Origin: Burkholderiales bacterium
GTDB taxonomy: Bacteria; Pseudomonadota; Gammaproteobacteria; Burkholderiales; Burkholderiaceae_C
Reading direction: 5' to 3'
DNA: 57,703 nt
Assembly (NCBI GenBank): GCA_016185015.1
Contig: JACPOI010000046.1
Coordinates: 1-57,703 of the forward strand
In this document: positions 28,418 through 52,909 of the stretch, piece after piece
Position numbering within the stretch: position 1 is the first letter of the stretch
Layout of the letters: every line of letters begins with the position of its first letter
Translations under genes and position numbers: made by a program
The notes under the pieces: generated by a model
The model's database searches: none
What the model was told of the DNA's origin: nothing
What the model saw: only the letters and a program-made list of their open reading frames with translations

Positions 28418-28466
28418 CAAAAGCTCCTGGGGTTGGTTGGAGATGAAGTGACTTTAAGAAGCTTTT

Positions 28467-35594: not shown

Positions 35595-35609
35595 GTTGTT
35601 TTCACAAGG

Positions 35610-35650
35610 TTGTCAAATGGTTTGAATACAAAGAGTCATCGTCGTTTCAC
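35610..35650 (+). promoter_or_regulatory. Candidate degenerate Pho-box array before the aminotransferase gene
   Basis: TTGTCAA-ATGG-TTTGAAT (35610-35627) and GAGTCAT-CGTC-GTTTCAC (35633-35650) have the 7-4-7 layout and about 11-bp phase, 30 nt before the ATG at 35680. The match to CTGTCAT is partial. Confidence 0.4.
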
Positions 35651-35679
35651 ACGGCTGCCCCAAAGGAAACCGAAGGACC

Positions 35680-37323
35680 ATGACTTACGAACTTGCCTGG
35701 ATTGCCGGCGCTGTTGGCGTCACCCTGCCCGCCCTCAAGCGCCGACTGGAGCTCTCGCGCGCCAAGCACCCCTCGCTGGCCGGGCATTCGCGCATGGCCA
35801 AACGCCTGGCGCGCTGGATTCCGGGTTACGCCTACGACGAGGCCACCTTCTATGCCTGCGATGGCGCGCCCGATACCGTGGCGCAACAACGCCGCGCGGG
35901 CTTCTTTGCACTCGCCGGCCGGCTGCAGGCGAAGGCGCCGCAGTCGATCGCGCTGACCAAGGCAGCGCGCGACGGTCTGCCGGATCTGCGTTTCACGGGC
36001 GCCTACCGCGTGCCCTACCAGTTCAGCCCCTACCTGCGCCAGCATCTGCAAGTGGGTGGCTTCGTACAAGCCAGCGAGGGCGTGAGCGTGACGGACCTGG
36101 ACGGCAATCGCTACATCGATCTCACCGGCTCCTACGGCGTCAACGTCATGGGCATGGACTTCTACAAATCCTGCATCGCCGCAGGCGCGCGCATTGCGCA
36201 GGATCTGGGCCCCGTGCTGGGCGCCTACCACCCCTGCGTGGCCGACAACGTGGCGCGCTTGCAGCAGATCAGCGGGCTGGACGCCGTGTCCTTCCACATG
36301 AGTGGCACCGAGGCCGTGATGCAGGCCGTGCGCCTGGCCCGATACCACACGGGCAAGCGCCACCTGGTGCGCTTCTGCGGGGCTTACCACGGCTGGTGGG
36401 AAGACGTGCAGCCGGGCCCGGGCAACCCCCTGCCCCCGCGCGAGACCTACACCCTGCGCGACATGCACGAGGCTTCGCTCAAGGTGCTGCGCACCCGCCG
36501 CGACATCGCCTGCGTGCTCATCAACCCCCTGCAGGCCCTGCACCCCAACAAGAACGCCCCGGGTGATTCCACCCTGCTCGACAGCAGCCGCAGCGCGGGC
36601 TACGACCGGGCAGCCTACACGCGCTGGCTGCAACAAGTGCGCGAGGTCTGCACCGAGCGCGGCATCGTGCTGATCTTCGACGAGGTCTTCCTGGGTTTCC
36701 GCCTGGCCGCACGCGGCGCGCAGGACTACTTTGGCGTGCAGGCCGATCTGGTCACCTACGGCAAGACGCTGGGCGGCGGCCTGCCCGTGGGCGTGGTTTG
36801 CGGCAAGCAGGCGCTGATGCAGCGCTTCCGCGAGGACAAGCCGGCCGACATCTGCTTTGCGCGCGGCACCTTCAACGCCCACCCCTATGTGATGGGCGCC
36901 ATGAACGAATTCCTGCGCCGACTGGAAACGCCCGAGGTGCGCGCGATCTACGTTGACCTCGACCGCACCTGGGACCAGCGGTGCGAGCGCTTCAACGACC
37001 GCATGCTGGCCGAAGGCCTGCCCTTGCAGGCCGCGAACATGAGCAGTGTCTGGACGCTGAGCTACACCCGCCCCTCGCGCTACAACTGGATGCTGCAGTA
37101 TTACCTGCGCGATCATGGCCTGGCCCTGAGCTGGGTGGGCACGGGCCGTTTCATCTTCAGCCTGAACTTCAGCGAGAGCGATTTCGAGGACATGCTGGAG
37201 CGTTGTGTGCAGGCCGGCTTGCAGATGCAGCGCGACGGCTGGTGGTGGCAGGCCCCGGGCCTGACGAACAAGACCATCAAGCGCGGGCTGCTGCGGGAAA
37301 TGCTGCGCCATCTGTGGCGCTAG
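35680..37323 (+). CDS. Class III PLP-dependent aminotransferase with N-terminal extension
   Basis: 547 aa. The class III (ornithine / GSA aminomutase-like) core runs from about residue 110: SGTEAVMQAVRLARYHTG, CGAYHGWWEDVQPGPGN, the PLP-Asp segment LIFDEVFLGFR and the Schiff-base lysine in LVTYGKTLGGGLPVG. About 100 extra N-terminal residues, basic and helical, begin with a hydrophobic helix (ELAWIAGAVGVTLPALKRRL), so the enzyme may be membrane-associated. It is divergent from psd, has a candidate Pho box, and is followed by the convergent Mpo1-like gene. The product is unknown; the surroundings suggest a role in lipid head groups, which is inference. Confidence 0.82.
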   Translation: MTYELAWIAGAVGVTLPALKRRLELSRAKHPSLAGHSRMAKRLARWIPGYAYDEATFYACDGAPDTVAQQRRAGFFALAGRLQAKAPQSIALTKAARDGLPDLRFTGAYRVPYQFSPYLRQHLQVGGFVQASEGVSVTDLDGNRYIDLTGSYGVNVMGMDFYKSCIAAGARIAQDLGPVLGAYHPCVADNVARLQQISGLDAVSFHMSGTEAVMQAVRLARYHTGKRHLVRFCGAYHGWWEDVQPGPGNPLPPRETYTLRDMHEASLKVLRTRRDIACVLINPLQALHPNKNAPGDSTLLDSSRSAGYDRAAYTRWLQQVREVCTERGIVLIFDEVFLGFRLAARGAQDYFGVQADLVTYGKTLGGGLPVGVVCGKQALMQRFREDKPADICFARGTFNAHPYVMGAMNEFLRRLETPEVRAIYVDLDRTWDQRCERFNDRMLAEGLPLQAANMSSVWTLSYTRPSRYNWMLQYYLRDHGLALSWVGTGRFIFSLNFSESDFEDMLERCVQAGLQMQRDGWWWQAPGLTNKTIKRGLLREMLRHLWR

Positions 37324-37328
37324 GAAAG

Positions 37329-37363
37329 AAAAAACCCGGTGCGACGGAACCCGCCGCACCGGG
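37329..37363 (-). terminator. Intrinsic terminator for the Mpo1-like gene
   Basis: On the minus strand CCCGGTGCG pairs with CGCACCGGG (37355-37363 and 37335-37343) and is followed by six T (37334-37329). Convergent with the aminotransferase gene and probably useful to both. Confidence 0.85.
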
Positions 37364-37372
37364 AACATGGCA

Positions 37373-38020
37373 TCAGGCCTGGTGACGGGCCAGTTCGGCC
37401 TCGTGCTCGGCACGTTCCTCGATCAGGTGCTCGGGCTTGGCGATCAGCTCGCCCTGCAGCAGGTACAGCGGCGACTTCCAGTAGAGCAGGATGTCGTGGA
37501 AAGGGTCGGTGATGATCTTGGTGGCCCAGACGATGCCGGTATAAAGACTTTGGGTCACGGCCAGTTGCAGCACGCGGAAGGCCAGGCCACCCACCCCCAG
37601 CCAGAGCCAGAGCCAGCCGACGTTGAGCACGTAGCCGCTGGGCTGGGTGTGCGCCTCCAGCAGGCCGAAGAAGTCCGGCTGCAGCCAGAGCACCACGGGC
37701 AGGCCGGCCCAGACGGCCATGAGCACCACCTTGCGCTTGAGGTTGTAGCCCACCTTGATCTCTTCCTTGTACTCGTGGGTGGCGTGGTTCACCTCGTCAT
37801 AACCCTTGGGCTCGAAGAAGAAGTGGCCCGACTGACGCGAGACCATGGAGATCAGCCAGGCGATCAGCGCGGCCACCGGCGGCTGGATGAAGAGGAAGGC
37901 ATAGGCCACCAGGAAGGACACAGCGCTGATGAGGTGCAGCGACTGGTTGATGCGGCTGTGGTGGTAGTAGCGGTGGTCGTCCCAGCGCTGGACCTTCAGG
38001 GCTTGCAGAAATTGGCTCAC
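37373..38020 (-). CDS. Mpo1-like / DUF962-type membrane protein
   Basis: 215 aa, four to five membrane segments. The pattern YYHHSRINQSLHLISAVSFL, then IAWLISMVSRQSGHFFFEPK, resembles the DUF962/Mpo1 family, in which His residues near membrane helices bind iron for oxidation of 2-hydroxy fatty acids (known in yeast). The start is GTG 38020 with AAGGAG 6 nt upstream; longer frames overlap the divergent regulatory region. A Pho box lies 70-87 nt upstream. Enzymatic activity here is inferred from the family and not certain. Confidence 0.6.
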   Translation of the reverse strand: MSQFLQALKVQRWDDHRYYHHSRINQSLHLISAVSFLVAYAFLFIQPPVAALIAWLISMVSRQSGHFFFEPKGYDEVNHATHEYKEEIKVGYNLKRKVVLMAVWAGLPVVLWLQPDFFGLLEAHTQPSGYVLNVGWLWLWLGVGGLAFRVLQLAVTQSLYTGIVWATKIITDPFHDILLYWKSPLYLLQGELIAKPEHLIEERAEHEAELARHQA

Positions 38021-38089
38021 GGAGGCTCCTTGTATCGAAGATGCTGGACGTGGAGAGGCCACGCCCAGGGCGCATGCTCGGCCTGCTTC

Positions 38090-38107
38090 ATGAAAAGTCG
38101 ATGACAG
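38090..38107 (-). promoter_or_regulatory. Pho box for the Mpo1-like gene
   Basis: Minus strand CTGTCAT-CGAC-TTTTCAT (7-4-7), 70 nt before GTG 38020; back to back with the plus-strand boxes that follow. Confidence 0.65.
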
Positions 38108-38115
38108 CGCAGTCC

Positions 38116-38177
38116 CTGTCATCAAAAATTCATGTGCCGGCACAGCCAGGCGACCGTCGCTGTCATCGAACTGAGAT
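38116..38177 (+). promoter_or_regulatory. Pho-box pair for the GT4 gene
   Basis: CTGTCAT-CAAA-AATTCAT (38116-38133) and CTGTCAT-CGAA-CTGAGAT (38160-38177). The two sites are 44 bp apart, exactly four 11-bp turns, so they lie on the same DNA face. The gene starts 23 nt after the second. Confidence 0.65.
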
Positions 38178-38199
38178 AAACGCGCGCCAAGATGTCAGC

Positions 38200-39429
38200 A
38201 TGAAACCCGACACCACCGATATCCTGGTCGAAGACCTGCCACCGGCGCAGGCCCATCTGCGCATCGCCGTGGTCACCGAGACCTACCCGCCCGAGATCAA
38301 CGGCGTGGCGCTCACGCTGCAGCGCGTGGTGGAGGGCCTGCGCGAGCGCGGCCACCAGGTCCAGCTGGTGCGCCCGCGCCAGGCCAGCGAAGCGCCTGCG
38401 GGTGCATCGGGCGACGTACTCATGCGCGGCATGCCCATCCCGCGTTACCCGCACCTGCAGCTGGGCCTGCCCTCGCGCCGCCAGCTCGAACCGCTGTGGA
38501 CGATCAAGCGGCCGGACCTGGTGCACATCGCCACCGAAGGCCCGCTGGGCTGGTCGGCGCTGCGCGTGGCGCGCAAGCTGCGCATTCCGGTCACCTCGGA
38601 TTTCCGCACCAATTTCCACGCCTACAGCAGCCACTACGGCATGGGCTGGCTGAGCAAGCCCATCATGGCCTACCTGCGGCGCTTCCATAACCAGACGCTG
38701 TGCACCATGGTGCCCACACGCGGCCTGGCCGATCGCCTGAGCGCCGCCGGCTTGGAGCGCCTGCAGGTGGTGGCGCGCGGCGTGGACAGCAGCATCTTCG
38801 ATCCGGTGCACCGCAGCGAGGCGCTGCGCGCCAGCTGGGGTGCCGGGCCTGACACCCCGGTGCTGCTGTGTGTGGGCCGCCTGGCCAAGGAAAAGAGCCT
38901 GCCGCTGCTGGTGCGCGCCTACGCCCAGGCGCGGCTGCAACGACCTGATCTCAAACTGGTACTGGTGGGCGACGGCCCGATGCGCTCCGAGTTGCAGGCG
39001 CTGGCGCCCGAGGCCATCTTCACCGGCACGCTGGCGCGCCCGGCCCTGGCGCAGCACTACGCCTCGGCCGACCTCTTCGGCTTTCCGAGCCAGACCGAGA
39101 CCTTCGGCAATGTGGTGCTGGAGGCCATGGCCAGCGGGCTGGGTGTGGTGGCCTTCGACTATGCCGCTGCCTCGGAAAACATCCAGGCTGGCCACAACGG
39201 CCTGCTCGCGCCCATGGACGACGACGAGGCCTTTGTGCGTCAGATCGTCGAGCTGGCGCAGGACGGCGCCCTGCTGCAGCGCCTGCGCACGGCCTCGCGC
39301 GATGCGGCGCTGCAGAACGACTGGGCCGGCATCGTGGCGCAGATCGAGAGTGTCATGAAGCTGGCCATCGCCACCAGCATGGCCGGCGACGCGCGCCTGC
39401 CCTCAATCGCGCCGCAGCAGATGGCCTAG
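38200..39429 (+). CDS. GT4-family glycosyltransferase (probable lipid glycosyltransferase)
   Basis: 409 aa, retaining GT-B fold. The N-terminal domain has LRIAVVTETYPPEINGVALT and the sugar-acceptor segment VTSDFRTNFHAYSSHYG; the C-terminal nucleotide-sugar domain has LLCVGRLAKEKSLPLLV and the E-x7-E motif within FGFPSQTETFGNVVLEAMA. This is the type of enzyme that glycosylates diacylglycerol or phosphatidylinositol. The start is ATG 38200 just after two Pho boxes; in-frame codons upstream run through those boxes. The 3' end overlaps the lplT-like gene by 27 nt on the other strand. A second GT4 gene is at 47259. Confidence 0.87.
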   Translation: MKPDTTDILVEDLPPAQAHLRIAVVTETYPPEINGVALTLQRVVEGLRERGHQVQLVRPRQASEAPAGASGDVLMRGMPIPRYPHLQLGLPSRRQLEPLWTIKRPDLVHIATEGPLGWSALRVARKLRIPVTSDFRTNFHAYSSHYGMGWLSKPIMAYLRRFHNQTLCTMVPTRGLADRLSAAGLERLQVVARGVDSSIFDPVHRSEALRASWGAGPDTPVLLCVGRLAKEKSLPLLVRAYAQARLQRPDLKLVLVGDGPMRSELQALAPEAIFTGTLARPALAQHYASADLFGFPSQTETFGNVVLEAMASGLGVVAFDYAAASENIQAGHNGLLAPMDDDEAFVRQIVELAQDGALLQRLRTASRDAALQNDWAGIVAQIESVMKLAIATSMAGDARLPSIAPQQMA

Positions 39430-40686
39430 CAAGGAGCGCCGCCCCGGCGCCCCGCGGCGTTGCCACAGGTTGCGCCCGATGAACGCGGCCAGACCCAGGC
39501 CGGCCAAGCCCATGACGATCTGCACCGGCACCTGCAGGGCGATCAGCCCCGCGTAGAGTCCCAGCATGAGAAGAACGCTGAGGTTTTCGTTGAAACCCTG
39601 TACGGCGATCGACTGCCCCGCCGTCAGCAGGCGGTGGCCGCGGTGCTGCAACAAGGCGTTCATGGGCACCACCAGCATGCCGCCCAGCGCTCCCACCATC
39701 AGCAGCGAGGGCACGGACCAGGTCCAGTCCGGCACCCAGACCGTCAGCGCCATCAGCCCGCCCATCACCAGGCCCAGGGGCAGCACGCTGGTGGCGTGGC
39801 GCAGGCGCAGGCGGCTGGCCACCAGCACGGCGCCCGCGACCACCCCGACGGCGACGATGCCCTGCAGATAGGCGGCCCGGTCCAGGCTCAGGCCCAGCAC
39901 CTGCACGGCCCAGTGCAGCACGGCGAACTGAAGCATGGCCCCGATGCCCCAGAAGGTGGTGGTGACCGCCAGCGACAGGCCGCCGCTGCGATCGCGCCAG
40001 AGCGTGGCATTGGCGCGCCGGAAGTCGGCCAGCATGCGCAGGGGCGCCCGGTCGCGCACCGGGTAAGACTTGCCGCTGGGCACGATGCGCAGATTGCAAA
40101 GCGAGGACAGCGCGTAGAGACTGATGACCAGCAGCAGAGACACGTTGAGCGCGGGCGAGGAGGCGCCAGCCGCCACCGGCCACAGGGCACCGGCCCAGCC
40201 CACGGTACCGGAGCCCAGCCACAGCGGCGAGATCAGGCCGCCGCCCAGCACCGTGCCCAGCAGCACGGAGAGCACCACTGTCGATTCGATCCAGCCATTG
40301 GCCGCCACCAGTGCGGCAGGCGGCACGCTTTCGGTCAGCAGGCCGTATTTGGCCGGCGCATAGGCCGAGGCCCCCAGGCCCACCAGGGCAAAGGCCAGCA
40401 TGGGATGCATGCCATACAGCAGCGCCAGCGCGCCCAGCAGCTTGAGCGCGTTCATCCAGGCCATGAGGCTGCGCTTGCATACGGCGTCGGCCAGCGCGCC
40501 GATGAAGGGCGCCAGGAGGACGTAGGACAGGGTGAAGGCGAACTTGAGCAGCGGCGCCCACCACAACGGCGCGCCCAGGTGATGCAGGTGGGCGATGGCG
40601 ACGATGAGCAGCGCGTTGTCGGCCAGCGAGGAAAGAAACTGGGTGGCCATGAGCCACCCGAAGCCGCGCGGCAACTGCCTAGACAT
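39403..40686 (-). CDS. lplT: LplT-like lysophospholipid transporter (MFS)
   Basis: 427 aa with about twelve membrane helices. The N-terminus (GFGWLMATQFLSSLADNALLI) and the segment FVLLAPFIGA-like VLLAPFIGALADAVCKRSLM, YAPAKYGLLTESVPP, match the LplT lysophospholipid flippase group of the major facilitator superfamily, which brings lysolipids back to the inner leaflet for re-acylation. Start at 40686 overlaps the end of ugd by 8 nt, indicating one transcript. Upstream in-frame sequence is ugd read in another frame. Confidence 0.85.
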   Translation of the reverse strand: MSRQLPRGFGWLMATQFLSSLADNALLIVAIAHLHHLGAPLWWAPLLKFAFTLSYVLLAPFIGALADAVCKRSLMAWMNALKLLGALALLYGMHPMLAFALVGLGASAYAPAKYGLLTESVPPAALVAANGWIESTVVLSVLLGTVLGGGLISPLWLGSGTVGWAGALWPVAAGASSPALNVSLLLVISLYALSSLCNLRIVPSGKSYPVRDRAPLRMLADFRRANATLWRDRSGGLSLAVTTTFWGIGAMLQFAVLHWAVQVLGLSLDRAAYLQGIVAVGVVAGAVLVASRLRLRHATSVLPLGLVMGGLMALTVWVPDWTWSVPSLLMVGALGGMLVVPMNALLQHRGHRLLTAGQSIAVQGFNENLSVLLMLGLYAGLIALQVPVQIVMGLAGLGLAAFIGRNLWQRRGAPGRRSLLGHLLRRD

Positions 40687-42121
40687 GCGCCATGGAAGGG
40701 GCGCTCTCGGCCAGGTCGGCGGCCAGGCGGACACCGGGCACGGCCTGGCTGGCCAGTGCATTGCGCCGGCCGATGCCCTGGTAGGCAATGCCCTGCTCCT
40801 GCAGTTGCTGTGGGTCGTAGAGATTGCGGCCATCGATGATGAGTGGATGGCGCAGGGCCTGGCGGATCAGCCCGAAATCCGGGTTGTGGAAGAGCTTCCA
40901 CTCGGTCACCACCAGCAGGGCGTCGGCGCCATCGAGCGCGGAGATGGCGTCGCCCACGAGCGTGAGGCGCGACAGGCCATCCGGAATGTCGGCCAGGTCT
41001 TCGGCCAGCACGGCCAGCGCCGCCTCCATGGCCACCGGGTCGTGGGCCACCACCTCGGCGCCGCGCAGGATGAGTTGGCGGATCAGGTGACGGCTGGGGG
41101 CCTCGCGCATGTCGTCGGTCTGCGGCTTGAAGGCCAGGCCCCAGACGGCGAAGCGGCGCCCGCGCAGATCACTGCCGAAGTGGGCCATGACCCGGCGCGC
41201 CAGGATCTGGCGCTGGGCCTGGTTGACACGCTCGGTGGCCTCCACCAGCTGCATCTGGCTGCCATGCTGCTGTGCGGTCTGCATCAGGGCGCGCGTGTCT
41301 TTGGGAAAGCAGCTGCCGCCATAGCCGGTGCCCGCGTAGAGGAAACTCGGGCCGATGCGGCTGTCGCTGCCGATGCCACGGCGGATGGCATCCACGTCTG
41401 CCCCCACCAGATCGGCCAGGTTGGCCATCTCGTTCATGAAGGAAATGCGCGCGGCCAGCATGGCGTTGGCAGCGTACTTGGTCAGCTCGGCGCTGCGCAC
41501 ATCCATCCAGACCGTGCGTTCGTGGTGGCGGTTGAGCGAAGCGTAGAGGCGTGTCATGGCGGCGCGCGCCATCTCGCCGGGGGCACCAGCGGGCAAGCCG
41601 ATCACGATGCGGTCCGGGTGCATGAAGTCGTCGATGGCCGCGCCTTCCTTGAGGAACTCGGGGTTGGAGATCACGGCAAGGGGCAGCGAAGACAGGTCGC
41701 GCTCGGCCAGCGCCTCGGCCAGCACCGCACCGACGCGCTCGGCCGTGCCCACCGGCACGGTGGACTTGTTCACGATGACCAGGGGATGCGTCAGGCAACG
41801 ACCCACCTGGCGCGCCACCTCCAGCACGTGGACCAGATCGGCCGAGCCATCCTCCTTCGGCGGCGTGCCGACGGCGATGAACAGCACCTCGCAGGCTTCC
41901 AGCGCATCGGGCAAGCGCGTGGTGAAGAACAGGCGCTGGTCGCGGGTGTTGCGCTGGATCACGCTGTCCAGCCCGGGCTCGTAGATCGGCACCACACCCG
42001 AGCGCAGCAGCTCCACGCGGCGCGGGTCGCTGTCCATGCAGACCACTTCGTGGCCCATGTCGGCCAGACAGCTCGCCGTCACCAGACCCACATAACCCGC
42101 ACCGATCACTGATACTTTCAT
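40679..42121 (-). CDS. ugd: UDP-glucose 6-dehydrogenase
   Basis: Oxidises UDP-glucose to UDP-glucuronate with two NAD+. The 480-aa protein has the NAD site VSVIGAGYVGLVTASCL, the segment VNKSTVPVGTAER, the structural KYAANAMLAARISFMNE and the catalytic cysteine in GYGGSCFPKDTRAL, then the C-terminal VWGLAFKPQTDDMREAPS. The start is ATG 42121 with GAGGTG upstream rather than the GTG two codons earlier. It could supply sugar nucleotide to the GT4 enzymes in this region, as in glucuronosyl-diacylglycerol synthesis; that link is inferred. Confidence 0.94.
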   Translation of the reverse strand: MKVSVIGAGYVGLVTASCLADMGHEVVCMDSDPRRVELLRSGVVPIYEPGLDSVIQRNTRDQRLFFTTRLPDALEACEVLFIAVGTPPKEDGSADLVHVLEVARQVGRCLTHPLVIVNKSTVPVGTAERVGAVLAEALAERDLSSLPLAVISNPEFLKEGAAIDDFMHPDRIVIGLPAGAPGEMARAAMTRLYASLNRHHERTVWMDVRSAELTKYAANAMLAARISFMNEMANLADLVGADVDAIRRGIGSDSRIGPSFLYAGTGYGGSCFPKDTRALMQTAQQHGSQMQLVEATERVNQAQRQILARRVMAHFGSDLRGRRFAVWGLAFKPQTDDMREAPSRHLIRQLILRGAEVVAHDPVAMEAALAVLAEDLADIPDGLSRLTLVGDAISALDGADALLVVTEWKLFHNPDFGLIRQALRHPLIIDGRNLYDPQQLQEQGIAYQGIGRRNALASQAVPGVRLAADLAESAPSMAHV

Positions 42122-42163
42122 GGTCACCTCGCTAGTTTGTTGGGGTGATCATGGAAGCGTCAT

Positions 42164-42203: not shown

Positions 42204-42226
42204 GGCCAACGGCCCTCGCGCACGGT

Positions 42227-44104
42227 TCAGGCCGGGACCGTCACGCGCCGCGGCATCACGAAGAGGCCGTTACCTGCAAGCTTGGCCTCGCGCTTGGCCA
42301 ACGCGGCCTGGGTGGCGACCTCCTCCGCATCGCGAAAGGCCAGCTTGCCGACCTGCACCGCACCGATGGAAACTGTGGTGCAGGGGAAGAAGCGCATGAC
42401 CCCGTGCCGGTCCTCGGCGTGGATGCCGCCACACAGGCGCGCCGCCTCGTCGAAGAGCTCGCGCGCCTGCTGGGCGAATTCGTCGACGATGCGCTCGCAG
42501 CGCTGCGCCCAGTCGTCGCTCTGGAACAGGATCATGAAATCATCGCCGCCCACATGGCCGACGAAGTCGCGCTGGGGATCGCTGTGCGCCACGGCCAGCC
42601 GCGCCAGCAGGCGGATCATCTCGTCGCCGCGCCAGTAACCATACTGGTCGTTGAAGGGCTTGAAGTTGTTCATGTCGATGTAGCAGGCGACAAACTCGCC
42701 CTGGCTCTCGATCAGGCGCTTGATGTGCAGGCTGATGGGGATGTTGCCCGGCAACGAGGTCAGCGGGTTGGCGTGGCGGGCCGCCTCCAGGCGCAACTCG
42801 GTGACCGAGCGCACCAGCTGCTCGCCCGTGCCCAGGCCCACGTAACGACCGTTCTCGGTGACGATGAAACCGTCGCTCAGGTAGCGCTGGTCCTGCGAGG
42901 TCAGGATGCCGACCAGCTCCTCGATGTCGTGGCTGCGCTCGATCAGTCGCGGTTGCTGGTTGGCGTGCAGCAGGCAGGACTTCTTGCCGAAGATCTCGCG
43001 GAAGTACAGGGTGGCGTAATGGTCCATGAACTGCTGGCGGTTGATGATGGCCAGCGGACATTCGTCGTCCACCACCGCCACCGCGTGCAATTCGGGATAG
43101 GCCTGGAAGATGGCTGCCACCTCGTCGTTGCTGGCGCGGCAGCCGATCGCCGGCGCATGGATGAGCGACAGATGGCGCAGTTGCCCCATGCGGGCCACGT
43201 AGCGTTGCTCGGGCATCACCGCCACCCGCGTGTCGTGCAGCACCTGCACCGCCGCAGCAAGGATCTCGGGCTGCACCTCGGCCCCTGGACGCCCCAGGAA
43301 ATAGCCCTGGCCATAGGCGATGCCGAGATCGCGGATGACACGCAGGTCGGCCTCGTTCTCGATGCCCTCGGCCACCAGCGCCGTGCCGAAGACATCGGCG
43401 ATCTGCAGCAGGGCCTGCAAGGTCTTGAGCTTGTCGGCGCTGCAGCTGATGTCGCGGCTGAAATACTTGTCGATCTTGACGATATCGGGCCGGATCTGCG
43501 ACCACAGGCGCAAGCTGGAGCGGCCATCGCCAAAATCGTCGAGCGCCAGTGACAGGCCCACGGCATGCAGCGCACGGGCCACCTCGACCAGCCCGTCCAT
43601 GTCGTGCACGCGTTCATGCTCGGTGATCTCAAGCACCACCATGCGCGGCGACACCTCCAGCGCGCGCATGGCGCGCGCCAACGTCTGGGTGCCGTCTACC
43701 GCCACCAGCCGCTCCAGTGCATGGGCGCTGATGTTGAGAAACAGCCGGCCCGGCTGGCGCTGGCGCCCCCAATCCCGCAGCGCCAGGTAGATGCAATAGA
43801 GCTCGAACTCATAGAGCAGGCCTTCGGCCTGGGCCGCGCCCAACAGCGCATCGGCCGACTGCAGCAGGCTGCCCTGCGGCCCGCGGATCAGCGCCTCATG
43901 CGCATGCACCGATACGCCCTTGAGATCGATGATGGGCTGGAACACCGGGTAGAGAGCGTCACCACGCATCAGGCTGGCCAACGGTCCGCCCCGCTCACTC
44001 AAGGTGGACAGGAATTCGTGGGCAAAGAGGCGGACATGATCAATCATGGGGTGGCGGTGCGCAACGTGTGCATCCTCCGGATCAGCAAGCAGAGTTTCCA
44101 GCAT
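42227..44104 (-). CDS. EAL-CBS-GGDEF signalling protein
   Basis: 625 aa with domains in the order EAL (about 50-280), a CBS pair (about 300-440) and GGDEF (about 450-610). The EAL site is intact: HEALIRG, metal Asp pair in LALDDFGDGRSS and VAEGIENEADL, so cyclic-di-GMP phosphodiesterase activity is likely. The diguanylate-cyclase signature reads GGDDF instead of GGDEF, so that domain may be weak or regulatory. The CBS pair would bind adenine nucleotides. Soluble, no membrane segment. Two Pho boxes in a five-unit array lie before it, suggesting that phosphate starvation alters c-di-GMP. Confidence 0.9.
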   Translation of the reverse strand: MLETLLADPEDAHVAHRHPMIDHVRLFAHEFLSTLSERGGPLASLMRGDALYPVFQPIIDLKGVSVHAHEALIRGPQGSLLQSADALLGAAQAEGLLYEFELYCIYLALRDWGRQRQPGRLFLNISAHALERLVAVDGTQTLARAMRALEVSPRMVVLEITEHERVHDMDGLVEVARALHAVGLSLALDDFGDGRSSLRLWSQIRPDIVKIDKYFSRDISCSADKLKTLQALLQIADVFGTALVAEGIENEADLRVIRDLGIAYGQGYFLGRPGAEVQPEILAAAVQVLHDTRVAVMPEQRYVARMGQLRHLSLIHAPAIGCRASNDEVAAIFQAYPELHAVAVVDDECPLAIINRQQFMDHYATLYFREIFGKKSCLLHANQQPRLIERSHDIEELVGILTSQDQRYLSDGFIVTENGRYVGLGTGEQLVRSVTELRLEAARHANPLTSLPGNIPISLHIKRLIESQGEFVACYIDMNNFKPFNDQYGYWRGDEMIRLLARLAVAHSDPQRDFVGHVGGDDFMILFQSDDWAQRCERIVDEFAQQARELFDEAARLCGGIHAEDRHGVMRFFPCTTVSIGAVQVGKLAFRDAEEVATQAALAKREAKLAGNGLFVMPRRVTVPA

Positions 44105-44161
44105 TCCATTCCAGGGACCGCAGTTCCGACGGCATTCAGACAGTCACTGTGCCGCAGCAGC

Positions 44162-44212
44162 GTGACAGGACGGTGACATCCGGGTTTCTGTTTCATGACA
44201 GACACAAGACAG
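44162..44212 (-). promoter_or_regulatory. Five-unit Pho-box array before the EAL-GGDEF gene
   Basis: Minus strand: CTGTCTT-GTGT-CTGTCAT (44212-44195) and ATGTCAC-CGTC-CTGTCAC (44179-44162), in exact 11-bp phase with one weak unit (CAGAAAC) between. The start codon lies 58 nt downstream. Confidence 0.75.
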
Positions 44213-44287
44213 CTGACCCAACCACGATTGCAGCGATGTTTGAAACTATATAAACTGTTTTCATCACAAGCTCATCGGTACTTTTTC

Positions 44288-44659: not shown

Positions 44660-44667
44660 GGCTCTGT

Positions 44668-45129
44668 TCAGAGCACGTCGGGCGACTGCACCGACACCAG
44701 GGTGGTCTGCGAGATGCCGTCGCGCAGGCGATGGCGCAGCCACCAGACAGCACCCTTCTTGACGCTGCACTCGCTGCCATGGATGGCGAGCAGGCGCGCG
44801 ATGGTCTGACCCAGCACCGGCTGGTGCCCGACCACCACGGTGACACCACGTCCGTCGGGCCATTGAACGGCCTGCAACAGTTGTTCGACCGTGGCACCAG
44901 GCCCCAGTTCTTCACGGAGTTTGAACTTGCGGCCCAGGGCCAGCGCCGTCTGCTCGGTGCGGCGCGCCGGACTGACCAGGATGCGGGCCCCTTCGGGCAA
45001 CTGGCGGTCCAGCCAGCCCGCCATGCGGGCCGCCTGTTTTTCGCCGCGCGGCGTCAACGCGCGCGCAAGGTCATCCCCACCCGGCTGGGCCTCATGCGCT
45101 TCCGCGTGACGCCACAGCAACAGGTCCAT
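44668..45129 (-). CDS. sixA: SixA-like phosphohistidine phosphatase
   Basis: 153-aa histidine-phosphatase fold. The catalytic motif is LLLWRHAEAHE (RHA in place of RHG, as in SixA), with second His in VVVGHQPVL and the Arg in SPARRTEQTA. SixA removes phosphate from phosphohistidine in phosphotransfer proteins. The start at 45129 lies one base after the ppk1 stop (TGA-G-ATG), so translation is coupled to ppk1. Confidence 0.87.
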   Translation of the reverse strand: MDLLLWRHAEAHEAQPGGDDLARALTPRGEKQAARMAGWLDRQLPEGARILVSPARRTEQTALALGRKFKLREELGPGATVEQLLQAVQWPDGRGVTVVVGHQPVLGQTIARLLAIHGSECSVKKGAVWWLRHRLRDGISQTTLVSVQSPDVL

Positions 45130-45130
45130 C

Positions 45131-47248
45131 TCAGGCTCCACGCGGCTCGCGCAGCGCGTAACGCGCCATGAGGGCATCCTGGGCGCTGATGGCCGGGCGG
45201 CCGGCCGTGGGGGCCACCTTGGTGTAGCGCCCGTCCGGCTGCAACTCCCAGCTGCCCAGGGTGTCGCCCATGGCCGCCACCAGGCATTCGTCGACGATGC
45301 GCTGGCGCAGCAGCGGGTCCAGCACTGGCCAGGCCAGCTCGACCCGGCGCAGCATGTTGCGGTTCATCCAGTCGGCACTCGACAGATAGAGCTCCTCGGT
45401 CTCGCCGGCGCGGAAATAGAAGACCCGCGCATGTTCGAGAAAACGTCCGATCAGCGAGCGCACGCGGATGTTGCCGGTCTGTCCGGGCAGCTGTGCGGGC
45501 AGCATGCAGGCCCCACGCACGATCAGGTCGATCTTCACGCCCTTCTGTCCGGCGTCAATCAGGGCGCGAATGAGGGCCTCGTCGGTCAGGGCATTCATCT
45601 TGGCGACGATGCGCGCCGGCTGGCCTGCAGCGGCCGCAGCGCCCAGGCTTTCGATCTTCTCCAGCAGCCTGCGATGCAGTTGGAAGGGCGCCACCCACAG
45701 GTGCTTGAGACGCGGCAGGCGGCTCTGGCCGGCCAGGTGCACGAAGACGTGTTCGATATCGGCGGTCAGCCCCGCGTCGGCCGTGAGGTGGCTGAGGTCG
45801 GTGTAGAACCGTGCCGTCATCGGGTTGTAGTTGCCAGTGGACAGGTGGGCGTAACGCTTGAAGTGCCGGCCTTCGCGTCGTGTCACCAGCATCATCTTGG
45901 CGTGGGTCTTGAGACCGACCACGCCGTAGAGCACCTGCACGCCGATGGATTCGAGCTGCTCGGCCCAGTTGATATTGACCTCTTCGTCGAAGCGGGCCTT
46001 GAGCTCCAGCACCACCGTCACTTCCTTGCCGCGGCGCACAGCCTCGCGCAGCAGGTCCATCAGGACGGAGTTGGCACCGGTGCGGTAGATGGTCTGCTTG
46101 ATGGCCAGCACCTGCGGGTCGTTGATCGCCTCGCGCAGGAAATCGAGCACACCGTCGAAGCTTTCATAGGGCTGGTGGATCAGCTTGTCGCCGCGCTTGA
46201 GCTGATCGAAGATGGACTGCCCCGGCACCAGCTGGACGGGATAGGACGGCTTGTAGGACGGGAAACGCAGGCGCGGCTCGTCCACCAGGTCCACGAGCTG
46301 GCCCAGGCGCACCAGATTCACCGGCCCGTGCACGCGAAAGAGCGCGCCTTCGGGCAGCTCGAACTGGCGCAGCAGGAAGCCTGCCAGGTAATCGGAGCAG
46401 CCGGCGGATACCTCCAGCCGCACGGCCTGGCCGTAGTGGCGGTGCTGCAGACCCTGGCGCAGGGCGGTGCGCAGGTTCTTGACGTCGTCCTCATCCACCG
46501 CGAGGTCCGAGTGGCGCGTGACGCGGAACTGCGAGAACTGGCTCATCTCGCGCCCGGGGAACAACTCGGCCAGGTGGGCGCGGATGACACTGGAGAGCGA
46601 GACGAACAACCGGCGCTTGCCGCACAGGTTCTCGGGCAGGCGGATCAGGCGCGGCAGGGCGCGCGGCACCTTGACGATGGAAACGTCGTTCTCGCGGCCG
46701 AAGGCATCGTGTCCGCCCAGGCGAACAATGAAGTTGAGCGACTTGTTGGCCACTTGTGGGAAGGGATGCGAGGGATCCAGCCCCACCGGTATCAGCAGGG
46801 GCCGCACCTCCTGCTCGAAGTACTGCTTGACCCAGCGCCGCTGCGCGGTGTTGCGGTCGCCGTGCGAGATGATCTTGATGCCCTGCTTCTCGAAGGCCGG
46901 CATCAGCTCGTCGTTGTACAGGGCGTACTGGCGCTCCACCAGGCTGTGGATGGCCACCGACATGGCGTCGAAAGATGCCGCGGTATAGGTGCCCGACTGG
47001 TCCTGCCCCTGCTTGGCGCTCAGATGGGGTTCGGCGCGCACCTCGAAGAATTCATCGAGGTTGGAGGACACGATGCACAGGTAGCGCAGGCGCTCCAGCA
47101 GCGGCACCTCGGGCCGGCAGGCCCAGTCGAACACACGCTCATTGAAGGCCAGGATGCTCTGGTCGCGGTCCAACAGGGCGGGCACGGTGATGCGCTGGGC
47201 ACTTTCGTCAGGCACGGTCAACTCCAGGCTGGAAGATTGCAAAGTCAT
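45131..47248 (-). CDS. ppk1: Polyphosphate kinase 1
   Basis: Makes long-chain polyphosphate from ATP. The 705-aa sequence has the N domain SILAFNERVFDWA, the helical H domain VSSNLDEFFEVR, and two catalytic domains with the autophosphorylated His in GLKTHAKMMLVTRR, plus STGNYNPMTARFYTD. Length is normal. The ATG at 47248 has no Shine-Dalgarno before it (TAAACAATCTGTC) and the Pho-box geometry predicts transcription starting close to it, so the mRNA may be leaderless. The gene is followed by sixA. Its Pho box lies inside the 3' end of agt. Confidence 0.94.
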   Translation of the reverse strand: MTLQSSSLELTVPDESAQRITVPALLDRDQSILAFNERVFDWACRPEVPLLERLRYLCIVSSNLDEFFEVRAEPHLSAKQGQDQSGTYTAASFDAMSVAIHSLVERQYALYNDELMPAFEKQGIKIISHGDRNTAQRRWVKQYFEQEVRPLLIPVGLDPSHPFPQVANKSLNFIVRLGGHDAFGRENDVSIVKVPRALPRLIRLPENLCGKRRLFVSLSSVIRAHLAELFPGREMSQFSQFRVTRHSDLAVDEDDVKNLRTALRQGLQHRHYGQAVRLEVSAGCSDYLAGFLLRQFELPEGALFRVHGPVNLVRLGQLVDLVDEPRLRFPSYKPSYPVQLVPGQSIFDQLKRGDKLIHQPYESFDGVLDFLREAINDPQVLAIKQTIYRTGANSVLMDLLREAVRRGKEVTVVLELKARFDEEVNINWAEQLESIGVQVLYGVVGLKTHAKMMLVTRREGRHFKRYAHLSTGNYNPMTARFYTDLSHLTADAGLTADIEHVFVHLAGQSRLPRLKHLWVAPFQLHRRLLEKIESLGAAAAAGQPARIVAKMNALTDEALIRALIDAGQKGVKIDLIVRGACMLPAQLPGQTGNIRVRSLIGRFLEHARVFYFRAGETEELYLSSADWMNRNMLRRVELAWPVLDPLLRQRIVDECLVAAMGDTLGSWELQPDGRYTKVAPTAGRPAISAQDALMARYALREPRGA

Positions 47249-47258
47249 GACAGATTGT

Positions 47259-48344
47259 TTACAGCATAGATGACATTGGTGTGACAGTATCGTCCGATGG
47301 TCCTTTCAGGACTGTGTCCTGCCGCACAGGCACCAGATGGGCCAGGAATTGCTGCGCTGCCTGTTCCCAGCTGAACACTTCGGCCCGCTGGCGTGCTGCA
47401 TGGCGCGGCACGGCCTGCGCCCGGTACCAGGCCCGTTGCAGATCCTCGTCCAGCACCCCACCCTGGGCCCGGCCTTCGTGCTGGCCCAGCACCTCCAGCG
47501 GCCCATCCACCGGGTAGGCCGCCACGGGTGTGCCGCAGGCCATGGCCTCCAGCATGACCAGGCCGAAGGTCTCGGAGCGGCTGGGCATGACAAACACATC
47601 GGCCGCCGCATACACCTGGGCCAGTTCGGCCCGCGGCAGGATGCCCAGCCAGTGCACGCGCGGGTAGCGCGCCTTGAGCGCAGTTTCCAGCGGCCCCACG
47701 CCGCAGACGACCTTGCTTCCCGGCACATCGAGCTGCAGAAAGGCCTCGATGTTCTTCTCGTAGGACACCCGCCCCACGAAAAGCGATACCGGCCGGGGCA
47801 GATCCTGCAGCCCGGCATGGCTGCGCACCGCGTCCTGGTAGGGGAAGAGCCTGAGGTCCACGCCGTGTGTCCAGGGTCGCAGGTTCCTGAAACCACGCTC
47901 TTGCAACAGGTTCAGGACACCCTGCGTGGGCACCAGCACCCCCGAGGACGGACGGTGGAAATGGCGGAACAGGGCATACCCCAGGGTCAGAGGGATGTGC
48001 AGCGCAGCCTGTAGGATTTCCGGGAAACGGGTGTGGTAGGCCGTGGTGAAGGCCAGGCCGTGCTTCAGGCCATAGGCCCGCGCGGCCCAGCCCAGCGGGC
48101 CCTCGGTGGCAATGTGGATGGCCTGCGGCGCCAGTGCGTCCAGACGCGCACCCAGCGCCTTGCGCGGTCGTACGGCCAGGTCGATGCCGGCATACCCCGG
48201 GCAGGGGCGCGTGCGGAACTGGCCGGGGTGGATCACCTCGACCTCGTGGCCGGCGGCCCGCACCTCGCGCACCAGTTCGACCAGCGTGGTCACCACGCCG
48301 TTGACCTGGGGCTCCCAGGCGTCGGTCACCAGCGCGATCTTCAT
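47259..48344 (-). CDS. agt: GT4 glycosyltransferase, probable Agt (diacylglycerol glycosyltransferase)
   Basis: 361 aa, GT-B fold: N domain KIALVTDAWEPQVNGVVTT and TTAYHTRFPEILQAALHIP, C domain SLFVGRVSYEKNIEAFL and the E-x7-E motif within SRSETFGLVMLEAMACG. It resembles the Agt enzymes that add glucose or glucuronate to diacylglycerol during phosphate starvation and that sit beside plcP in many bacteria. It overlaps plcP by 4 nt (ATGA), so the two are co-translated: PlcP makes diacylglycerol, Agt uses it. UDP-sugar could come from ugd at 40679. Confidence 0.85.
   Translation of the reverse strand: MKIALVTDAWEPQVNGVVTTLVELVREVRAAGHEVEVIHPGQFRTRPCPGYAGIDLAVRPRKALGARLDALAPQAIHIATEGPLGWAARAYGLKHGLAFTTAYHTRFPEILQAALHIPLTLGYALFRHFHRPSSGVLVPTQGVLNLLQERGFRNLRPWTHGVDLRLFPYQDAVRSHAGLQDLPRPVSLFVGRVSYEKNIEAFLQLDVPGSKVVCGVGPLETALKARYPRVHWLGILPRAELAQVYAAADVFVMPSRSETFGLVMLEAMACGTPVAAYPVDGPLEVLGQHEGRAQGGVLDEDLQRAWYRAQAVPRHAARQRAEVFSWEQAAQQFLAHLVPVRQDTVLKGPSDDTVTPMSSML
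47270..47287 (-). promoter_or_regulatory. Pho box of ppk1
   Basis: Minus strand CTGTCAC-ACCA-ATGTCAT, 21 nt before the ppk1 start; AACAAT ten bases further on fits -10. It lies within the last codons of the upstream glycosyltransferase gene. A further CTGTCAT overlaps the start codon. Confidence 0.8.
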
Positions 48345-49213
48345 GCGGTGGCGGCGCGCACGGCGTTCTGCAGGGCCACGGTCGGTGCGGTGTCGCCCCA
48401 GCGCACCAGTTCGAGCCGGCCATCATGGTGCTCGACCAGGGCGGTCAGGCTCTCGACCCAGTCGCCGTCATTGCAGTAAAGGATACCTTCGATCTCGCGG
48501 ATCTCGGCATGGTGGATGTGGCCGCAGACCACACCCTGGTGGCCACGTTTTTTCGCCTCGTGCGCCACGGCCTGCTCGAAGTCGCTGATGAAGTTGACCG
48601 CCTTCTTGACCTTGTGCTTGAGGTAGGCGGAGAGCGACCAGTAAGGCAGGCCGAACCTGGCGCGCAGGTGATTCAGGTAGCGGTTGAGCTTGAGTGTGAA
48701 CTCGTAGAGGTTGTCGCCCACATAGGCCAGCCACTTGGCGCACTGGATCACGCCGTCGAAATAGTCGCCGTGGGTGACCCACAGGCGCTTGCCATCAGCC
48801 GTGAGGTGCACGGCATCGTCCACCACCTCGATGCCGCCGAACTGGTGGCCGATGAAACCGCGCGCGAACTCGTCGTGGTTGCCCGGCACGAAGACCACGC
48901 GGCAGCCCTTGCGTGCGCGGCGCAACAGCTTCTGCACCACGTCGTTGTGCGCCTGCGGCCAGTACCAGCGCCGGCGCAGCTGCCAACCATCGATGATGTC
49001 GCCCACCAGGTAGAGGTGCTCGCTGGAACTGGCCTTCAGGAATTCCAGCAGGTCCTCGGCGCGGCAACCGGGTGTGCCCAGGTGCAGGTCGGAGATGAAG
49101 ACGGCGCGGTAGCGCTTGCCACCGCCCTTGTCCTCGTCCTGGTCGTCGTCATGCCCTTGGCGCGCCATGGCCTGACCCAGCCAGCTGCTGCGGTGTTCGA
49201 GCGGGCTTTTCAT
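48341..49213 (-). CDS. plcP: PlcP-like phospholipase C (metallophosphoesterase, LpxH-like)
   Basis: 290 aa of the calcineurin-type phosphoesterase fold with all metal motifs: AVFISDLHLGTPG, LVGDIIDGWQLRRR, VFVPGNHDEFARG, WVTHGDYFDG and VVCGHIHHAEI. Automated calls often read UDP-2,3-diacylglucosamine diphosphatase, but the neighbours (olsB before, agt after, Pho box nearby) and the length fit PlcP, the starvation-induced enzyme that removes phosphocholine or phosphoethanolamine from membrane lipids. It overlaps olsB by one base (TGATG) and agt by four. Confidence 0.83.
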   Translation of the reverse strand: MKSPLEHRSSWLGQAMARQGHDDDQDEDKGGGKRYRAVFISDLHLGTPGCRAEDLLEFLKASSSEHLYLVGDIIDGWQLRRRWYWPQAHNDVVQKLLRRARKGCRVVFVPGNHDEFARGFIGHQFGGIEVVDDAVHLTADGKRLWVTHGDYFDGVIQCAKWLAYVGDNLYEFTLKLNRYLNHLRARFGLPYWSLSAYLKHKVKKAVNFISDFEQAVAHEAKKRGHQGVVCGHIHHAEIREIEGILYCNDGDWVESLTALVEHHDGRLELVRWGDTAPTVALQNAVRAATA

Positions 49214-50037
49214 CAGGCGCCAAAGAAGTGTTTGCGGTAACGCGCCGGCAGGTCGCCGATGCGCATCAGCATGGGCAGGTCGGCGCTGTTGAAGTCCGGG
49301 TCCCAGGCCGGCGCGCCGAGCACCTTGGCGCCCAGGCGCAGGTAACCCTTGATCAGGGCCGGCGGCTCGACGTCCAGGCTGCTGTCGAGCTCATCGACCG
49401 GCAGCGCCAGGCGCGGCCAGACCTGGTGTTCGATGGGTGCCATATGGGTCTCGCGCACCTGGCGCCAGATGCTGGCCGCCACATCGCCGCTGATCACGCC
49501 GTTGTGCAGCATGGGGATGCTGGCGCAGCCGATCATGGTGTCGAGCTTGTTGCGCACCATGAACTCGGCCAGCGCTCCCCACAGGGCCATGATGATGCCC
49601 CCGTGACGGAAATCCGGGTGCACGCAGCTGCGGCCCAGTTCCACCATGCGCTCGCGCAGGGCGCGCAGGCGCGTCAGGTCGAACTCCAGCTCGCTGTAGG
49701 TGCTGCCGATGCGCTGGGCCTGCTCGGGCGTGAGCACGCGGTAGGTGCCGATGACCTGCTGGCTTTCCTGGTCACGCACGATCAGGTGTTCACAGTAATC
49801 GTCGAACAGGTCCACGTCGTGGCCGGGCACCGTGGTGGAGAGGCGCGCGCCCATCTCGCCGACAAAGATGTCGTGCCTCAGGCGCTGCGCCGCACGGACT
49901 TCATCGAGGTGGCGCGCCCACGAAACTTCAAAGCCGCCGCGCTCTTGCGCAGGGACAGACTGATCAGGGCGGTGAAGTGACCCCCGAGGCATGGCAACGG
50001 GTGACAGCGGGAAAGTGGGGTTCGGTAGTTCTTTCAT
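49213..50037 (-). CDS. olsB: OlsB-like N-acyltransferase (ornithine lipid synthesis)
   Basis: 274-aa GNAT-related enzyme of the OlsB/haemolysin-like acyltransferase group that transfers a 3-hydroxyacyl chain to ornithine, the first step to phosphorus-free ornithine lipids. Seen: AAQRLRHDIFVGEMGARL, DDYCEHLIVRD, VIGTYRVLTPEQA, and ELGRSCVHPDFRHGGIIMALW. AGGAG precedes ATG 50037. No olsA-type O-acyltransferase is next to it, so the second step must be encoded elsewhere. First gene of the overlapping olsB-plcP-agt unit; a terminator separates it from the gene upstream. Confidence 0.85.
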   Translation of the reverse strand: MKELPNPTFPLSPVAMPRGSLHRPDQSVPAQERGGFEVSWARHLDEVRAAQRLRHDIFVGEMGARLSTTVPGHDVDLFDDYCEHLIVRDQESQQVIGTYRVLTPEQAQRIGSTYSELEFDLTRLRALRERMVELGRSCVHPDFRHGGIIMALWGALAEFMVRNKLDTMIGCASIPMLHNGVISGDVAASIWRQVRETHMAPIEHQVWPRLALPVDELDSSLDVEPPALIKGYLRLGAKVLGAPAWDPDFNSADLPMLMRIGDLPARYRKHFFGA

Positions 50038-50081
50038 TTTTTCTCTCCTGTTTTTGATGTCAGTGGATCGGTTGGGCGTAT

Positions 50082-50106
50082 AAAAAAGCCCCGGCTGGTC
50101 GGGGCT
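50082..50106 (-). terminator. Intrinsic terminator between the Pho-box gene and olsB
   Basis: On the minus strand AGCCCCG pairs with CGGGGCT around a 6-nt loop, followed by six T. It would stop or reduce transcription from the 50616 promoter into olsB. Confidence 0.85.
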
Positions 50107-50115
50107 CGCAAGAGG

Positions 50116-50616
50116 TCAGGTGGCAACGGCGCCTCCATCGCGGCGCCGCTCGACCAGGGTGGCCGTTTCGCCGTCGTGTTGGGTGTTGAAGAAGATGAAG
50201 CGCCGGTCCGGCGTACCCACGATGCCGGAGCGCAGAGTGGTCCGCTCCCCTGCGCGGGCCAGGGCCGCCACCGCCAGCGTGCGTGCGCGCAGTCGGTCGG
50301 GCATCACCAGCCAGCACCCCTGGCGCTCCAGGATCTCGATGGCGCCGTGCAATTCACCTTGCTCAACGAACAGGGACAGCACGCCATGCCGGGGGTTGCC
50401 GTCCAGCGGCTGGAACAGCAGGCCGGCGGCGCGCTGCCCGGGGCTCAGTGCCCAGTGGTGCAGCACCTGGGTGCGCCCGGTCTGCGGCAGCCCCCCGTCT
50501 CCCTGGAACACGGGCCACCAGCCGGCATCGCGCAGGCGGCCGACCTCCCGGCCCATGGCCAAGCCGGACCAGGCTTCGCCGGGTTCGCGTGGGGTGGGAG
50601 CGCCGTGGTTCTGCAT
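50116..50616 (-). CDS. Uncharacterised protein behind a strong Pho box
   Basis: 166 aa from ATG 50616 (MQNHGAPTPREPGEAWSG) with AAGG shortly before it. I recognise no domain. The sequence has an orderly beta-rich middle (TQVLHHWALSPGQRAAGLLF, GVLSLFVEQGELHGAIEIL) and end (GTPDRRFIFFNTQHDGETAT), no signal peptide and no membrane helix, so a soluble cytoplasmic protein is likely. The Pho box lies 46-63 nt upstream. It is first in line before olsB-plcP-agt and divergent from the arsenic operon. A role in the starvation response is inferred from regulation alone. Confidence 0.65.
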   Translation of the reverse strand: MQNHGAPTPREPGEAWSGLAMGREVGRLRDAGWWPVFQGDGGLPQTGRTQVLHHWALSPGQRAAGLLFQPLDGNPRHGVLSLFVEQGELHGAIEILERQGCWLVMPDRLRARTLAVAALARAGERTTLRSGIVGTPDRRFIFFNTQHDGETATLVERRRDGGAVAT

Positions 50617-50661
50617 GCCTTGCAGTGTGCGCAGGCTTGATGACGGCTTTGTGGCTGCCAC

Positions 50662-50679
50662 ATGACATCTCCATGACAT
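50662..50679 (-). promoter_or_regulatory. Pho box (perfect direct repeat)
   Basis: Minus strand ATGTCAT-GGAG-ATGTCAT: two identical 7-mers with a 4-nt spacer, the cleanest Pho box in the window. CACAAA or ACAAAG follows at -10 distance. Confidence 0.85.
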
Positions 50680-52908: not shown

Positions 52909-52909
52909 G

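Follow-up and report, generated by a model that had tools for sequence, protein, structure and literature searches.

Few lipids are known with which a membrane can be kept up without phosphate: glycolipids, ornithine lipids and betaine lipids. In Pseudomonas aeruginosa, plcP lies beside a GT4 glycosyltransferase gene and is associated with Pho boxes, and its two glycosyltransferases, Agt1 using UDP-glucose and Agt2 using UDP-glucuronate, are encoded at separate loci, PA3218-3219 and PA0842 (PMC8528852). In marine heterotrophs plcP adjoins genes for phosphorus-free lipids (agt or btaAB), again with Pho boxes (PMC4796936), and PlcP, OlsAB and TuaD are missing from a Pho mutant of Pseudomonas putida BIRD-1 at low phosphate (PMC5082522). 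Here we describe an island in a freshwater bacterium of the Burkholderiaceae_C (contig JACPOI010000046.1 of assembly GCA_016185015.1; the window is this entire contig of 57,703 bp), in which genes predicted to exchange phosphate-containing for phosphate-free membrane lipids are gathered beside the phosphate-uptake genes. Like the P. aeruginosa system it has plcP next to a GT4 gene (agt), and the island carries Pho boxes; the two P. aeruginosa glycosyltransferases are comparable with agt, a second GT4 gene (GT4b) and ugd here, although in P. aeruginosa their genes are not linked. The island also carries a class III aminotransferase gene (AT3), whereas the word "aminotransferase" is absent from the main text of all three papers, and "decarboxylase" from those on the marine heterotrophs and P. 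putida.

The island is composed of two things: the pst-ppk1-agt-plcP-olsB block of the family, and an inserted psd-AT3-Mpo1-GT4b module, with or without lplT and ugd, which is the part of main interest. We interpret the whole as a PhoB-controlled, phosphate-sparing island that combines PlcP-dependent lipid remodelling with a conserved pathway of AT3, an Mpo1-like protein, a Psd paralogue and a GT4 glycosyltransferase (probability about 0.7). From sequence, its co-regulation by PhoB and its shared lipid theme appear well supported. The original prediction had proposed a PhoB-controlled remodelling programme in this region; its main inference is partly supported, being sound but incomplete, and it omitted the core of the module, namely psd, which lies outside the interval described, and the linkage of AT3 with Mpo1.

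Pho boxes were scored with an 18 bp matrix (consensus type TGTCACA-N4-TGTCACA) learned by expectation maximisation from the pstS upstream regions of 22 relatives and of this window; only pstS promoters were used for training because circularity was to be avoided, and Markov-1 resampled sequence served as background for the window and the named genomes. Eleven window sites reach 12 bits where 0.89 are expected, and all eleven precede genes between 28.4 and 50.7 kb: pstS, the 28589 gene, AT3, the Mpo1-like gene, GT4b, an EAL-GGDEF gene, ppk1 and hyp50. A plain search for CTGTCAT-N4-CTGTCAT with up to three mismatches finds 10 matches in the window against a mean of 3.5 (standard deviation 1.8) in shuffled sequence, and none of 100 shuffles reaches 10. 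The exact dyad TGTCAY-N5-TGTCAY occurs three times in the whole genome (4.02 Mb in 66 contigs, of which the window is 1.4%), each time inside the island. With up to one mismatch there are 31 dyads genome-wide, 9 of them in the window (binomial 4e-10, overlapping sites counted as independent), versus 11 in the genome for a reversed-pattern control. Such 7-mers, repeated in tandem every 11 bp ahead of genes and recognised by a pstS-derived matrix, are the features of a PhoB regulon; a TTAAAGT/TACAGT-like element about 8 bp after the dyad was spotted by eye. The boxes originally proposed before ppk1, the Mpo1-like gene, a GT4 gene, the EAL-GGDEF gene and hyp50 are thus borne out by shuffles, by an independent matrix and by the genome-wide dyads, and the site of the aminotransferase gene, described as weak, is instead among the best (Table 1). 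Outside the window, 10 of the 21 scorable sites with at most one mismatch also reach 12 bits (two of these are intragenic; one further dyad site without a locus is not among the 21), and therefore the Pho regulon is concentrated in the island, not confined there. The ten include one site of 12.5 bits before a gene read as PhoX-like from its N-terminus (L116, contig 65) and one of 17.9 bits before a gene for a secreted-looking protein (L099, contig 30).

The family block is common. plcP is present in 220 of 299 sampled family genomes, including this one, and 40 relatives chosen from these 220, mostly by rank, were compared over 20-kb stretches around plcP, so that counts are conditional on that choice; genes in relatives were labelled by tblastn matches, with agt scored within the stretch and AT3 genome-wide. 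The usual arrangement is phoR-phoB-phoU-pstBACS-ppx-sixA-ppk1-agt-plcP-olsB, with olsB in 35 of the 40 stretches, ppk1 in 34 (21 of these also with pst), agt in 27 and pstS in 22. The AT3 module is found in only six, and is met elsewhere as a module of its own. What the relatives compared commonly share is the segment from pst through ppx, sixA, ppk1, agt and plcP to olsB; psd-AT3-Mpo1-GT4b(-lplT-ugd) has the status of an insertion, and the notion of the island as a single unit, that is one ancestral block, is not upheld. In the direction of the gene, sites of at least 12 bits precede ppk1 in 26 of 34 relatives, olsB in 16 of 35, GT4b in 5 of 6, the counterpart of the 28589 gene in 5 of 11, Mpo1 in 2 of 6, arsR in 4 of 14 and ppx in 3 of 27, the promoter region of arsR often being shared with olsB. 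There are none before sixA (0/32), agt (0/28), plcP (0/40), phoU (0/19), glmM (0/9), psd (0/6), ugd (0/3) or lplT (0/4); these and the other upstream counts omit genes with a late match start or a short upstream stretch. Of the 27 AT3-negative relatives 23 have agt in the plcP stretch, versus 4 of the 13 AT3-positive ones (p 0.001, kinship ignored), as if GT4b took the place of Agt where AT3 is present.

The module is tightly linked. In the named-genome set, the best 80 of at least 575 relatives with AT3, the neighbourhood contains psd in 78 loci, Mpo1 in 75, GT4b in 71, lplT in 39, plcP in 25 and ugd in 21. The missing psd and Mpo1 genes and eight of the nine missing GT4b genes lie beyond contig ends (at most 1.3 kb of sequence remaining on that side); in L205, GT4b is truly absent within 10 kb of AT3. 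The order psd(-) AT3(+) Mpo1(-) GT4b(+) is kept in 68 of the 70 loci that show all four genes (L187 and L210 differ), with 2.4-3.3 kb separating AT3 from Mpo1 in L152, L153 and L156; it is not explicable by an operon because neighbours alternate in strand.

The module also keeps its boxes. Sites of at least 12 bits in the direction of the gene precede Mpo1 in 41 of 73 loci and GT4b in 34 of 70 (51/73 and 50/70 on either strand), where single-strand resamples of the Mpo1, GT4b and AT3 upstream regions reach 12 bits in 0.6-1.9%. Control genes give 0/9 (phoU), 0/9 (pstB), 0/6 (sixA), 0/5 (phoR), 1/9 (phoB) and 2/4 (arsC). The Mpo1-GT4b gap is boxed in 23 of the 32 loci without a pst, pho, ppx, plcP, ppk1 or olsB gene in the stretch and in 28 of 37 other loci, against none of 138 length-matched windows of AT3-coding sequence, and in relatives, too, boxes lie in the psd/AT3 gap. 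In 19 of 23 more distant loci there is at least one site of 10 bits or more in or beside the module, and the module sequences, about 159 kb in all, hold 59 such sites versus 17 in about 257 kb of surroundings (both strands, some not before genes). One locus (L258:4790-14163) has plcP, ugd and a diglucosyl-diacylglycerol-synthase-like glycosyltransferase gene adjoining a psd-AT3-Mpo1-GT4b-lplT module; its psd alignment row, an antisense open reading frame, was excluded. The comamonad-type module is also carried by L176, L207 and L213, from records titled as Akkermansia, Bordetella and Klebsiella metagenome-assembled genomes. L176 agrees with Limnohabitans L175 in gene order and identities, and therefore at least its title looks wrong.

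AT3 occurs with plcP. It is present in 93 of the 299 family genomes and in 25 of 398 sampled genomes of the phylum's classes (this genome and its classmates included). Within the family, plcP is found in 92 of 93 AT3-positive versus 128 of 206 AT3-negative genomes (Fisher 3e-14), and across the class in 9 of 11 versus 93 of 358, kinship being ignored in both. The class-level exceptions carry a GT4-fusion protein, complete in G343 and visible for its first 78 residues only in G483. The same protein follows AT3 in nine plcP-negative genomes of other families. In five of these it is complete, with about 900 residues and a C-terminal GT4 domain (L134:10844-13552, L249, L250, L251 and L255), and in L137, L222, L239 and L242 the contig or locus ends before GT4. 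Among 18 AT3 genomes compared (G291 and six AT3-positive genomes of L245's genus left out), plcP is absent from all nine with the fusion protein behind AT3 and present in all nine without it. The fusion protein, we infer, replaces both PlcP and Agt. Its N-terminal half matches no Pfam family over cut-off (best E 0.03), and its two PDB sequence matches, at E 0.31 and 0.35, miss the limit of E<=0.1; a PHP-type fold, guessed from a DMHCHDHH motif noticed by eye in L134, was set aside. Eight loci of other classes (L245-L248, L252-L254 and L257) hold, besides AT3 and Mpo1, agt or a PmtA-like methyltransferase gene or both, with psd in six and a lysophospholipase-like (PldB-like) gene in one genus group, the PmtA-like and PldB-like matches both being below NCBIfam cut-offs. 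L135 (8265-10493) and L136 (9007-11223) each encode a single protein that joins AT3 to an Mpo1-like domain, with plcP, agt, a methyltransferase gene and the betaine-lipid gene BtaA (PF11899) as neighbours, and pst genes also in L135. BtaA was rejected as general partner, and betaine lipid as general product, of the module, since it was found in these two loci only.

Most of the gene identities originally proposed agree with Pfam and NCBIfam, by which genes called from frame composition were named here; those of the Mpo1-like, OlsB and GT4 proteins rest on matches below cut-off. The olsB-like protein scores 157 bits with the best OlsB model (cut-off 350) and 120 bits with PF13444; both GT4 proteins fall short of NCBIfam equivalog cut-offs, GT4b resembling the GlcN-PG synthase and monoglucosyl-diacylglycerol synthase models. 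Models of LpxH (UDP-2,3-diacylglucosamine diphosphatase) score far under their cut-offs with the plcP-like protein (48.7 bits, cut-off 134; 42 bits, cut-off 190). The Psd paralogue scores 177.9 bits with TIGR00163 (cut-off 111.75) and has the GST self-cleavage site and the MYHRFHAP region, the site reading HGST in all 14 aligned module copies versus LGST in two housekeeping copies; a second psd of the same genome lies on contig 17. AT3 has an extra N-terminus of about 100 residues that starts with a long helix (model mean pLDDT 79.6), and its presumed pyridoxal phosphate (PLP) lysine, K362, is invariant in alignments of 24 and 27 homologues. The aminotransferase domain of mycosubtilin synthase is part of a polyketide synthase-nonribosomal peptide synthetase and acts on an acyl chain bound to acyl carrier protein. 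Among solved structures this domain (6kfm) is nearest to AT3 both in sequence (E 6.5e-44) and in fold, but whereas it belongs to a larger synthase AT3 is free-standing with its N-terminal helix. AT3 as the haem-pathway glutamate semialdehyde (GSA) aminomutase HemL was rejected (165.7 bits against an equivalog cut-off of 527.3), and the constancy of psd and Mpo1 as neighbours also disfavours it. In yeast, Mpo1 oxygenates 2-hydroxy fatty acids in an iron-dependent reaction. All 38 aligned Mpo1-like sequences match PF06127 at E<=0.1 (best 1.5e-5), with H16, H20, H29 and H66 invariant, and the AlphaFold model is helical and of good confidence (pLDDT 86.6).

Under phosphate starvation, phospho-PhoB would bind the predicted boxes at pstS, ppk1, hyp50(-olsB-plcP-agt), EAL-GGDEF, AT3 and Mpo1/GT4b. 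By analogy with its known family PlcP would remove phospholipid head groups to leave diacylglycerol, which Agt and GT4b could glycosylate, with Ugd probably providing UDP-glucuronate as in Pseudomonas. OlsB would initiate ornithine lipids and LplT would recycle lyso-phospholipids. The accessory pathway of AT3, Mpo1-like protein, Psd paralogue and GT4 would, judging by the observed distribution, require PlcP or a stand-in. We picture the Mpo1-like protein oxidising, and AT3 aminating, a carbonyl of a membrane-bound lipid whose identity is a guess, as are the acyl chain or sugar of a glycolipid as the target of amination, and a phosphate-free amino- or aminoglycolipid replacing phosphatidylethanolamine as the product. 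That these enzymes make such an undescribed lipid under PhoB in many Pseudomonadota, with the GT4 fusion carrying out the phospholipase-type and glycosyl-transfer steps in plcP-less lineages, is a tentative proposal to which we give somewhat less than an even chance.

Several observations weigh against the main interpretation, a PhoB-controlled island with PlcP-dependent remodelling. In the window lplT has no Pho box, and the best ugd site, originally listed as weak, scores 5.7 bits, about 10 such sites being expected per window, and is thus not above chance here; elsewhere, ugd upstream regions do exceed shuffles (4 of 21 loci at 12 bits or more, median 9.3 against a shuffle mean of -1.2), and lplT has such boxes in 3 of 38. 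The proposal of one remodelling programme stands for co-regulation and lipid theme, by independent boxes and comparative genomics, though boxes in the window do not back it for these two genes. psd has no box of at least 12 bits in its own direction in any of 78 loci, and AT3 has one in only 23 of 79 (median 10.2 bits, resample mean -2.8) and in one of five family relatives (three more at 10-12 bits). Four of the 23 distant loci (L247, L248, L253 and L255) have no box reaching 10 bits within the module or next to it. L245 and L246 lack an adjacent psd, so psd is not obligatory. The genome G291 (58% complete) has AT3 and no plcP match, and the co-occurrence tests leave relatedness of genomes out of account. 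The Mpo1-like protein of the window scores 20.5-21 bits with PF06127 (gathering cut-off 24), and for the fused domains, at 27-28% identity, the label is weaker still (L135 matches in Pfam at E 0.09, L136 not at all). A fold search gives no PDB match at E<=0.001, so the model gives no help with the chemistry; nor does any PDB sequence match at E<=0.1 (one at 0.72).

Among other explanations, the module could serve phospholipid housekeeping, with Psd, Mpo1, AT3 and LplT (PmtA-like and lysophospholipase-like proteins elsewhere) rebalancing phosphatidylethanolamine (PE), phosphatidylcholine and acyl chains as PlcP thins the phospholipids. The retained self-cleavage motif of Psd, the frequency of lplT and the presence of PmtA-like and PldB-like genes beside the module in other classes agree with this, but it leaves AT3 without a role, and in several lineages a glycosyltransferase often joins the set; we regard it as unlikely. 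Slightly less likely still is salvage of head groups without any new lipid, in which AT3 would be a PLP phospho-lyase-like enzyme freeing phosphate from the phosphoethanolamine made by PlcP, Psd would feed PE to PlcP and GT4b would consume diacylglycerol. Ethanolamine-phosphate phospho-lyase does belong to the class III enzymes, AT3 depends on plcP and psd adjoins it almost throughout; however, the acyl-type mycosubtilin and the GSA aminotransferases are nearest to AT3, which has the long N-terminal helix and is paired or fused with a putative membrane protein, which would be odd for a soluble substrate. A mere neighbourhood of unrelated genes drawn to pst by shared PhoB control, as the boxed non-lipid genes (ppk1, EAL-GGDEF and the 28589 gene) might suggest, is very improbable given the AT3-Mpo1-like gene fusion and a module that moves as a unit, with its boxes, to stretches without pst.

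Returning to the amino- or aminoglycolipid interpretation, a conserved, Pho-boxed module centred on an aminotransferase, present in this family and also in further classes of the phylum, points to a lipid that has been missed so far. A literature search found no paper recognisable as describing psd-AT3-Mpo1-GT4b, most subscription papers and preprints being outside its reach, and the module is a widely shared, apparently unstudied enzyme set whose product may be an unknown lipid.

Table 1. Genes and Pho sites of the island (window coordinates; labels of the pst-pho genes are from translations and gene order only, without family search).
Feature	Position	Strand	Remarks
pst-pho operon phoR-phoB-phoU-pstB-A-C-S	21749-28420	-	
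pstS	27374..28420	-	heads the pst-pho operon
Pho box of pstS	28466..28483	-	24.5 bits, part of training set
Pho half sites before 28589 gene	28509-28537		three in register; sites of 14.1 and 13.5 bits
28589 gene	28589-29731		Peripla_BP_6 family, between pstS and ppx
psd paralogue	34731..35594	-	Pfam PF02666 190.7 bits; cleavage site HGST
Pho half sites towards AT3	35589..35617	+	three in 11-bp register; 19.3 and 16.8 bits
AT3	35680..37323	+	class III aminotransferase
Mpo1-like	37373..38020	-	all-helical putative membrane protein
Pho box of Mpo1-like gene	38089..38106	-	12.6 bits
Pho box of GT4b	38161..38178	+	15.6 bits; weaker 9.5-bit site at 38117
GT4b	38200..39429	+	lipid-type GT4 glycosyltransferase
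lplT	39403..40686	-	lysophospholipid transporter; NCBIfam PRK11195 447.8 bits, above cut-off 297
ugd	40679..42121	-	UDP-glucose 6-dehydrogenase family
EAL-GGDEF protein	42227..44104	-	
Pho boxes of EAL-GGDEF	44161-44178, 44194-44211	-	16.8 and 12.3 bits respectively
sixA-like	44668..45132	-	histidine phosphatase
ppk1	45131..47248	-	polyphosphate kinase
agt	47259..48344	-	first GT4
Pho box of ppk1	47269..47286	-	23.4 bits; within 3' end of agt
plcP-like	48341..49213	-	calcineurin-type phosphoesterase
olsB-like	49213..50037	-	ornithine N-acyltransferase
Terminator-like hairpin	50086..50107	-	between hyp50 and olsB
hyp50	50116..50655	-	no Pfam family; start codon uncertain
Pho box before hyp50	50661..50678	-	20.9 bits

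Within the family block, no site lies directly upstream of olsB in the window, the nearest box being that of hyp50, with the terminator-like hairpin between; a weak sigma-70-like match lies just upstream of olsB. Transcription of olsB-plcP-agt would thus start from the hyp50 box and pass through the hairpin, or start from another promoter. As to ugd, TuaD of P. putida BIRD-1 is a UDP-glucose dehydrogenase.

The EAL-GGDEF gene with its two Pho boxes (42227-44211) suggests that phosphate starvation could alter cyclic-di-GMP; its counterparts are boxed at 12 bits or more in two of five relatives. RapA of Pseudomonas fluorescens, likewise under Pho control, is a comparable EAL enzyme. Beside olsB, positions 50739-53986 hold arsR, a gene whose 440-residue product weakly matches ATP-grasp, a gene that we read as arsC-like and an SBF/Acr3-type gene; arsR is also found in 14 of the 40 plcP stretches of relatives, and the uptake of arsenate as phosphate may explain the position of these genes.

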